From an uncultured Veillonellaceae bacterium (GTDB taxonomy: Bacteria > Bacillota > Negativicutes > Selenomonadales > Selenomonadaceae), in the NCBI GenBank assembly GCA_900315575.1, contig OMZR01000023.1, forward strand, positions 1 through 34,882: DNA of 34,882 nucleotides. The letters run 5' to 3'. Of this stretch, positions 15,885 through 17,601 are shown piece by piece. A program made the position numbers and the translations under genes. The notes below the pieces were generated by a model. That model did no database searches. It was not told the DNA's origin and was given only the letters and a program-made list of their open reading frames with translations. Position 1 is the first letter of the stretch. Every line of letters begins with the position of its first letter.

Positions 15885-16916
15885 TCAGAACTGGCGCAGG
15901 AAGCGCATGTCGTTGTCGTAGAAGAGGCGCAGGTCATCGACGCCGTAGGACAGCATCGCGATGCGCTCGACGCCCATGCCGAACGCGAAGCCGCTGACGA
16001 CATTCGGATCGTAGCCGCTCATTTCGAGGACGTGCGGATGCACCATGCCGGCGCCGAGGATTTCGAGCCAGCCCGTGCCCTTGCAGACCTTGCAGCCTTT
16101 GCCGTGGCACATGACGCAGGAAATGTCGACCTCGGCCGACGGCTCCGTGAAGGGGAAGAAGCTCGGACGCAGACGAATCTTGACGTCCTCGCTGAAAATC
16201 TGATGCAGGAAGAGTTCGAGCGTGCCCTTGAGGTCCGCCATCGTGATGCCCTTGTCGATGACGAGGCCCTCGACCTGCGTGAACATCGGCGAATGCGTCG
16301 CATCATACTCGTCGCGGCGATAGACGCGACCCGGCGCGATCATGCGGATTGGCGTGTTCGGGTCGTTCTTCTGCATCGTGCGCGCCTGCACCGGCGACGT
16401 CTGCGAGCGCATGAGGATGTCCTCCGTGATGTAGAACGAATCCTGCATGTCACGCGCCGGGTGGTCTTTCGGCAGGTTCAGCGCTTCAAAGTTGAAGTAA
16501 TCTTTCTCGATTTCCGGGCCCTCCTCGACGGAGAAGCCCATGCGGAAGAAAATGTCCTTGATGCGCTCGAGCGTCAGCGTCAGCGGATGCAGATGGCCGA
16601 GCGGCTGCGTGCGGCCCGGCAGCGTGACGTCGATTTTCTCGCTTGCGAGCTTGTCCGCGAGCGCGCGCGCTTTGAGCTCCTCGTTCTTCTCGGCAATCAG
16701 CGCCTCGATCTGCGCCTTCGCCTCGTTGACGATCTTGCCGACCTTCGGGCGATCCTCTTTCGCAAGCGCCCCCATGCCGCGCAGGATGGACGTGAACTCG
16801 CCCTTCTTGCCGAGGAACTTGACGCGGATGTCATCGAGCTCCGAGAGATTCCCGGCCGCATGCTGGATGGCTTCGGCAGCTTGTGCCTTCAGCTGTTCGA
16901 TCTTTTCTTCCATCAT
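15885..16916 (-). CDS. pheS: Phenylalanine-tRNA ligase alpha subunit
   Basis: A 343-residue catalytic subunit of the class II synthetase. The N-terminal coiled coil (residues 1-85) includes [18 protein letters not shown]. Motif 2 lies in [22 protein letters not shown] and motif 3 in [15 protein letters not shown] cysteine cluster [17 protein letters not shown] lies between them, as in several Firmicute PheS proteins. The ATG at 16916 and the next codon are both possible starts; AGGAGG lies 12 bp upstream. Expression is controlled by the T-box leader, but a repeat-like element of about 160 bp separates that leader from this ribosome binding site. Confidence 0.97.
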
Positions 16917-16968
16917 AGAGAAAAACTACCTCCTAAAAAGGAATGAATAAAAACGCCGGTGGTTCCGG

Positions 16969-17131
16969 GGGAGCCAATGCGAAGAGACGTTCGTCTGGAT
17001 TGCCGCAGATTTTTCGTCCTATCAAGGAACCAAACCGCAAGGCGTAGCAGAGCTACGTCGAGGATTTGGTGACGCAGAGAGGACGGAAAAGATGCGACAA
17101 GACGGGCGGACGGATTTTCGCATTGGCTCCC
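16969..17131. mobile_element. MITE-like palindromic element in the pheS leader
   Basis: Bounded by perfect 15-bp terminal inverted repeats GGGAGCCAATGCGAA (16969-16983) and its complement (17117-17131). Inside are nested arms: TTTTCGTCCT (17011-17020) against AGGACGGAAAA (17080-17090), CCAAA against TTTGG, and GCGTAGC-AGA-GCTACGTC around 17042-17058. No coding capacity. An AATAAAAA 8-mer flanks it at 16946-16953 and 17134-17141, but that is low complexity and not clearly a target duplication. It lies between the T-box terminator and the pheS ribosome binding site. Confidence 0.65.
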
Positions 17132-17133
17132 TA

Positions 17134-17372
17134 AATAAAAAAGCTCCGTCCCCGCCATCATAGCAGGGGCGGAGACATGTCTTCGCGGTACCACCCTGAT
17201 TTGTTACTTTCTTTGAAAAGCCGTGCGCGGCCAGCGTCCGGACTACCACGCGCTTGGCGCTTCCCCCGGCTGCTCCGAAGGGAACTTCACAGCCCGCGCC
17301 ATCATCCCTTTCCAGCAACGGGACTCTCTTTCGACGCACGTGACGGCTACTTTCCTTCTTCATCACAAGTTA
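17134..17372 (-). promoter_or_regulatory. T-box leader controlling the pheST operon
   Basis: The minus strand carries the canonical T-box sequence AGGGTGGTACCGCG (17197-17184), which pairs with the acceptor end of uncharged tRNA. The terminator stem follows (17175-17143) with a T run at 17142-17137. The 5' part contains AGAGAG and a probable specifier region GTGAAG-TTC-CCTTCGG, with TTC (Phe) at 17284-17282, which agrees with pheS being the next gene. Uncharged tRNA-Phe would favour the antiterminator and raise transcription of pheS and the genes behind it. The T-box assignment is firm; the exact specifier position is inferred. Confidence 0.93.
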
Positions 17373-17378
17373 TGCTCT

Positions 17379-17407
17379 ATCTTACCACAGTTCGCGGGGG
17401 ATTTCAA
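17379..17407 (-). promoter_or_regulatory. Promoter of the pheS T-box leader
   Basis: TTGAAA (17407-17402), a 17-bp spacer and TAAGAT (17384-17379) on the minus strand, placing the start at about 17372 at the head of the T-box leader. Confidence 0.78.
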
Positions 17408-17462
17408 TGGAAAAGAAAGGATGAGGGCGCGCGGTCGCGGAGGTTGGCTTGCGGTCGCGGTC

Positions 17463-17601
17463 GGGCGGGGGCTTCCAACGGAAACAACGCTGACACGGCC
17501 TGCGAGGCTCGATGGTTTTTGAAGCGTTGAGTTCACATCGAGCTACCTCGATTTTTTCCGTTTCCTTACAGCTAAAAGTTTCCTTATGGAAGCCCCCGCC
17601 C
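17463..17601. repeat. Second bulged-core palindrome, with a pseudoknot-capable centre
   Basis: GGGCGGGGGCTTCCA (17463-17477) pairs perfectly with 17587-17601, then AC faces TTA, then GGAAAC (17480-17485) pairs with 17578-17583. This is the same core and asymmetry as at 4938-5009, with different outer arms. The central 92 nt hold CGAGGCTCGATG (17503-17514), which pairs with 17536-17550 except for a 3-nt bulge, and CAACGCT (17485-17491), which can pair with AGCGTTG (17523-17529) in that hairpin loop. Confidence 0.65.

Follow-up and report, generated by a model that had tools for sequence, protein, structure and literature searches.

A MITE-like, structurally constrained hairpin element inserted between a T-box terminator and pheS

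The window considered here, the whole analysed stretch of 34,882 nucleotides from an uncultured Veillonellaceae bacterium, carries on its reverse strand a reading frame which we take to be pheS, by resemblance and by the name given to it in a first-pass annotation of this DNA. It is preceded by a T-box leader and terminator and by a 163-bp palindromic segment (Table 1). The first-pass annotation had credited this segment with 15-bp perfect terminal inverted repeats and had placed it between the T-box terminator and the pheS ribosome binding site. Its coordinates proved exact, its ends are perfect reverse complements of each other, and the U-run of the terminator (17137-17142) and the pheS Shine-Dalgarno sequence flank it on its two sides, the latter at a spacing of 34 nt. 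In what follows, G000 denotes the window's own genome, G001, G002, G004, G005, and G006 denote its congeners, and L numbers denote loci.

Table 1. Features of the pheS leader region, in positions of the window
Feature	Position	Strand	Remarks
Mobile hairpin element, 163 bp	16969..17131	- (pheS-sense strand, carries CGTAGCTCTGCTACGCC)	RNA-like strand is +
Left terminal inverted repeat, 15 bp, perfect, GGGAGCCAATGCGAA	16969..16983	+	
Right terminal inverted repeat, 15 bp, perfect	17117..17131	-	reverse complement of 16969-16983
Core hairpin CCGCAAGGCGTAGCAGAGCTACGTCGAGG with asymmetric internal loop	17035..17063	+	common to copies in other groups
Three 2x2 internal loops, GA/GA	16986..17114	+	read from predicted structure and family tally
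Paired positions of the GA/GA loops	16986-16987/17113-17114; 16998-16999/17101-17102; 17008-17009/17091-17092	+	
pheS T-box leader (RF00230), whole model matched	17162..17372	-	68.3 bits
T-box terminator (stem-loop with U-run), immediately upstream of the element	17137..17174	-	from sequence; terminator also in relatives
pheS Shine-Dalgarno AGGAGG, outside the element	16929..16934	-	from sequence
pheS (presumed), 343 aa	15885..16916	-	

The T-box match has an E value of 1e-14 and lies below the Rfam gathering score for RF00230, which is 93; the leaders of four congeners score 68.0-76.8 bits, so that a default scan would miss the T-box of the window and its congener relatives alike. The terminator was not listed by a consensus scan. 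The arms of the element extend over 55 nt at 76% complementarity, and both of its strands are predicted to fold far better as RNA than their shuffled counterparts: the pheS-sense strand at -73.6 kcal/mol (z -9.0) and the + strand at -102.3 kcal/mol (z -14.9), with 0 of 200 shuffles as good in either case. At 163 bp, the element falls within the size range of miniature inverted-repeat elements (<500 bp with terminal inverted repeats) and is too short to encode a transposase; the open reading frames that cross it are mechanical.

The segment is a real insertion. A BLAST search of its own genome returned 20 matches, of which 17 places over 66-163 nt are left once the self-match of the query on its reverse strand and two matches of 21 nt are taken off; since L011 and L013 flank an N within one contig and are probably one copy, these correspond to about 16 loci. 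Among 41 genomes (its own and 40 relatives), 13 contain matches at E 0.001 or better, including all seven of the genus. At pheS itself, the leader is empty in G001 and G006, whose pheS starts are 98% and 97% identical to that of the window and where about 33 nt separate the terminator U-run from an identical Shine-Dalgarno sequence. Among the 24 pheS loci of relatives that were examined, a T-box motif is recognisable in 14, and the core of the element was found in none of these within 700 nt downstream of the motif or up to the contig end (L063 spans only about 230 nt). The leader of G002 is unreadable; its contig (L145) starts about 30 nt before the pheS start codon. Empty sites were likewise found in one or more congeners for seven other copies (at L003, L004, L006, L008, L009, L016, and L034). 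Other copies are shared: the L012 copy is common to G000, G001, and G006, with just 46 of 163 nt aligned in G002, and the L002 copy is common to G000 and G006. The junction at pheS is not clean, because the right flank differs from the empty allele, and the L008 site lies within a larger inverted repeat that is also present in its empty allele.

These observations bear out the insertion proposed in the first-pass annotation, which had asked for an empty site in related pheS leaders and for further copies with the same ends. As the pattern that would speak against an insertion, it had named the presence of this sequence at this position in every related species and its absence elsewhere; that pattern fails on both counts. 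The strong structure of the segment and its place in the leader of an essential gene might suggest that it belongs natively to this leader, as another regulatory hairpin of the T-box operon. This alternative is refuted by the empty sites and is scarcely credible, given its absence from every readable relative locus and its many copies elsewhere in the genome. Insertion into pre-existing hairpins as a rule was also rejected, as no hairpin was seen at the L016, L034, and pheS empty sites. By eye, a short hairpin is present at some other empty counterparts (the L005 and L015 sites, and the L043 site in G002), and some of these may be remnants. Carriage by plasmids or phages was rejected as well: plasmid and phage collections gave no match to the element at E 0.01, and IMG/VR no match with the exact core. 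Elsewhere in G000, a solo terminal hairpin (L261:1490-1530), apparently a remnant of the element, lies upstream of a presumably rpsO-like gene.

How the element moves is suggested by its flanks and by the company that it keeps. With ends placed by script at GG...CC, and after removal of copies with weak arms, without a GG...CC boundary, or near a contig end (Myxococcales copies being unscored), exact 4-bp target duplications were found around 11 of 18 copies in Synergistaceae (500 shuffles: mean 2.5, maximum 9) and around 6 of 36 in the Selenomonad group (500 shuffles: mean 0.47, maximum 4), above the shuffles in both groups. The six in the Selenomonad group are at L024, L036, L046, L147, and L207, from G004 and G005, and at L123. 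For the Desulfo/Geobacter group, 12 of 24 copies have exact 3-bp repeats, a number within the shuffled range (mean 8.9, maximum 14). In G000, exact 4-bp duplications are absent from all 12 scored copies; the pheS copy has TTAG on its left and CCCC on its right. By eye, L007 would show a CTTG duplication if its boundary were shifted by one base.

A candidate partner was found among DDE transposases. A DDE_Tnp_1 search of seven metagenome-assembled genomes (MAGs) gave matches in five. The Synergistaceae MAG G060 contains an intact 1.3-kb element (L343) with TTAA on both sides and ends GGAAACGCTGAATAAAT, whose 328-aa transposase matches the NCBIfam IS5 model NF033581 at 290.7 bits against a cut-off of 140. 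The same MAG holds a copy of the repeat (L086), so that partner and repeat occur together, and two further copies in this assembly (L122 and L130) have GGAACCGCTGATTAAAT as their ends and are flanked by TTAA on either side. The congener G001 holds an intact relative (L319), whose ends are GGAAACAATGATTTAATC and GGAATGCTGATTTAATC, whose flanks, TTAA/TTAG, are not identical, and whose transposase shares 60% identity with that of L343 over 314 aa; G006 holds a truncated relative of this type of insertion sequence (IS). In G000, an assembly in 221 contigs, six DDE_Tnp_1 matches were found, none of which resembles the IS5 partner. An end-pattern search of G000 (at most one mismatch) gave 26 matches against 2 for controls, most of them in known copies and one in the solo terminal hairpin at L261; of the five one-mismatch matches elsewhere, the four inspected showed no IS end. 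Nor was a parent IS seen by end similarity among 75 fetched stretches, where the matches included short core-less derivatives.

In diverged copies, the arms have lost their match to the IS ends. By eye, the repeat is unlike the IS except at its ends, which makes it a type II MITE as the review PMC10969869 uses the term. The label MITE-like given in the first-pass annotation thus holds for size, inverted repeats, duplications at the level of the family, and an IS5-family element with matching ends; it does not extend to a target duplication, which neither the pheS copy nor any of the 12 scored copies of G000 shows, or to a partner IS in its own assembly. A single-strand element of the REP/REPIN or IS200/IS605 kind would share the hairpin form, the strand asymmetry described below, and the many copies without clear duplication. 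We consider such an origin very improbable, as 4-bp duplications exceed shuffles in two groups and an element with a DDE transposase bears the same ends.

The core of the element has a far wider distribution than the genus. The exact core CGTAGCTCTGCTACGCCTKCGG is present in 75 stretches of the species collection, in carriers titled Selenomonas, Veillonellaceae, Synergistaceae, Desulfobulbaceae, other Desulfo- groups, Syntrophobacteraceae, Geobacteraceae, Desulfuromonas, Nitrospirae, and Myxococcales, as well as an Actinobacteria MAG, where nearly all carriers are MAGs, individual ones of which may be misbinned. A 27-base core pattern (at most two mismatches) matches 9, 7, 22, 10, 5, 1, 2, and 75 times in eight genomes, and its reversed control matches in none of the eight. 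On four contigs of one Deltaproteobacteria MAG (L084, L126, L135, and L140), the core lies within quite different ends, of the CTAGCCCGCATTATTCATGA type. The highest of the eight counts, 75, is that of the Myxococcales MAG G059 (L120, L241-L252, L287-L316); in the copies read there, an inner stem of about 4-5 bp varies between copies and stays paired. Searches of one literature collection with core strings and for palindromic mobile repeats, MITEs, and tandem GA yielded no description of the repeat, and among Rfam covariance models no family describes it, some matches lying far below the gathering score.

The element is also structurally constrained. Changes in its stems compensate each other in pairs, and RNA-like behaviour is seen on the strand opposite to the pheS sense. 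In an alignment of 19 Selenomonad-group copies in the pheS sense, both sides have changed in 35 of 58 pairs (shuffles 16.6, slides 15-16); for the opposite strand, the + strand of the window, the count is 28 of 54 (shuffles 11.4, slides 9-17). On that opposite strand, 95.1% of cells pair, against 38-48% in slides, and the covariation score is 0.322, against 0.042-0.098, a comparison in which the structure is favoured because it was derived from the same sequences. Covariation as expected of a functional structured RNA is thus seen above both shuffled and slid controls. In 111 of 114 distinct copies, it is the opposite strand that forms the more stable RNA (39/39 in the Selenomonad group, 27/29 in the Desulfo/Geobacter group, 20/20 in Synergistaceae, and 25/26 in Myxococcales). 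The ratio of A.C to G.U on the pheS-sense strand, counted after removal of columns with one wobble state in >40% of copies, is 134:36, 161:55, 60:23, and 11:2 in the same four groups, so that G.U is favoured on the opposite strand in all four. As the copies are related, these counts do not represent independent events; a tally by pairs in which the state occurs goes the same way (32 vs 16, 32 vs 20, 29 vs 12, and 8 vs 1). Tandem GA/GA accounts for 113 of 127 2x2 loops on the opposite strand in the Selenomonad group, 18 of 31 in the Desulfo/Geobacter group, and 10 of 24 in Synergistaceae; in Myxococcales, it occurs in 0 of 19.

Copies that share a locus were also compared between genomes. Between G000 and G001 or G006, the L012 copy has three changed pairs, all still standard, one of them through a change on both sides (three further L012 comparisons, L154, L155, and L168, with 44-64 nt aligned, are omitted from these counts). 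L021/L032 has six changed pairs, five of which are kept standard; L010/L210 has 18, of which 12 are kept and 6 lose the standard pair; and L002, L043, and L034 show no change.

Two accounts of these patterns compete with that of a transposed and structurally constrained repeat. The first is that arm complementarity is kept by palindrome correction, that is, by template switching in replication, with no selection involved. It requires no host function and would accommodate the many copies with near-perfect arms whose sequences differ from one another. Correction would not be expected to prefer G.U to A.C on a particular strand, yet all four groups show this preference, and the GA/GA mismatches persist uncorrected; we therefore regard this account as unlikely and infer that selection, rather than a mutational process, lies behind the compensating changes. 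The second is that the family consists primarily of structured RNA genes, expressed from the + strand and conserved for an RNA function, which have spread by means of borrowed IS5-type ends. The covariation above controls, the strand asymmetry, the GA/GA loops, and the occurrence of the core with different ends in MAGs labelled as several phyla all favour it. Weighing against it, no Rfam family describes the element, ends and copy numbers vary freely between genomes, and no + strand promoter-like site is present in 16800-17500, where the sole promoter-like site near the element is on the - strand. On balance, an RNA gene family in this primary sense also seems improbable.

Copies of the family recur in regulatory leaders. 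In G005 (L146:1085-1452), a copy with an exact TAAA duplication interrupts the T-box leader of pheS in the stretch that links stem III to the antiterminator, and the T-box model matches end to end around the insert at 70.8 bits. In G004, a copy immediately upstream of this leader is flanked by an exact TTGA duplication, and this TTGA starts, by eye, a -35-like hexamer. Together with the window's, the family is thus present at 3 of the 15 pheS loci whose T-box motif is readable, in three different places, a count noticed post hoc with no enrichment test behind it. A further copy in G000 (L005:1359-1711) lies within a peripheral stem-loop of a cobalamin riboswitch, which is uninterrupted in G001, G002, and G006 (90.5-97.3 bits) and scores 52.4 bits with the insert, the 5′ part of which is misaligned by the model; the sense transcript here carries the more stable strand. 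Two of the three congeners have a different short hairpin at this riboswitch loop. In G006, a copy (L043:1248-1656) lies directly downstream of the 6S RNA gene.

That riboswitch and the 6S RNA are the sole matches of an RNA scan at E 0.001 over 20 copy-bearing Selenomonad loci. Another 20 loci, three of them also in the former set, gave no RNA match at gathering score, a threshold that misses T-boxes of the pheS type, such as that at L036, and 19 loci of other groups gave no RNA match near the element. Insertions in structured leaders are apparently a minority, since these scans of copy loci gave few RNA matches. The riboswitch-class leaders that hold related copies otherwise look intact.

For the pheS transcript, the first-pass annotation had pointed out that a structured element downstream of the terminator and upstream of the Shine-Dalgarno sequence would be carried by every read-through mRNA and might alter mRNA stability or translation. 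The carriage follows from the arrangement, in which the element lies beyond the point of the T-box decision and ahead of the ribosome binding site; read-through mRNA carries it as a self-contained hairpin, in the form of its less stable strand. As the hairpin is past the terminator and the Shine-Dalgarno sequence is free, little effect on T-box control is expected, and the element is probably a tolerated hairpin at this locus. Cleavage by RNase III would be the likeliest consequence, by analogy with the cleavage of this kind that the review PMC10969869 reports for Correia repeats. Among copies co-directional with their neighbours, the less stable strand is in the host transcript in 17 of 25 and the more stable strand in 8 of 25 (from 35 copies in all, some orthologous, and with approximate gene calls), which hints weakly that the stable strand is avoided in host mRNA and does not fit a role there. 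The simple gene caller put L002 inside a gene; its actual place is just upstream of one.

The reading that we favour, and consider probable, is that of a non-autonomous MITE-like insertion, mobilised in trans, most likely by a DDE transposase of the IS5 family, structurally constrained, and most likely mild in its outcome at pheS. An IS5-family transposase would recognise ends of the type GGAA..C.CTGAT and duplicate 4 bp upon insertion; from their matching ends, transposases of the L343/L319 type may be those that move the repeat. In the read-through pheS mRNA, the self-contained hairpin probably loops out, and MITE precedents suggest that a mild outcome is the most likely, in which it is tolerated and possibly serves as a substrate of RNase III. 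The same tolerance would explain the relatives within a T-box linker and a cobalamin riboswitch loop. A more far-reaching reading, which we put forward tentatively as a possibility, is that of a widespread mobile RNA family: a conserved hairpin RNA of one strand, with tandem G.A motifs and an asymmetric core, which borrows IS5-type ends, is selected as RNA, can insert into T-box and riboswitch RNAs without disrupting them, and may be trimmed out of them by RNase III, so that it would serve regulatory RNAs as a mobile and removable part.

The usual view of bacterial MITEs is that they are decaying transposon ends. The family described here resembles type II MITEs of the IS5 family in its shortness, the lack of any coding likeness seen, its terminal inverted repeats, the 4-bp duplications around some of its members, and IS ends shared without the interior. 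It differs from them in its asymmetric core across distant groups, its covarying stems, and the RNA-like behaviour of one strand. A parallel exists in the intervening sequences of 23S rRNA, hairpin insertions that are tolerated in loops of a structured RNA; these lie in rRNA, and the present element is likened to them by tolerated hairpin insertion, not by excision. Like ERIC, Correia, and BOX, the family consists of structured dispersed repeats, and it is set apart from these by its different hosts; effects of RNases on mRNA are reported for Correia and ERIC in the review PMC10969869. The Chunjie MITE of Geobacter uraniireducens, inserted in an operon according to the same review, is 235 bp in length, as opposed to 163 bp; Geobacteraceae MAGs also hold copies of the present family.

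What lies upstream of pheS goes beyond an ordinary MITE: one strand is RNA-like, the core occurs under the labels of several phyla, and copies reside within structured leaders. In MAGs that bear labels such as Selenomonas, Desulfobulbaceae, Synergistaceae, and Myxococcales, one strand shows the features by which functional RNAs are recognised. If the RNA is not real, the family serves as a warning that mobile palindromes can yield covariation. If it is real, it becomes testable whether mobile hairpins add to regulatory RNAs, tune them, or are processed out of them.
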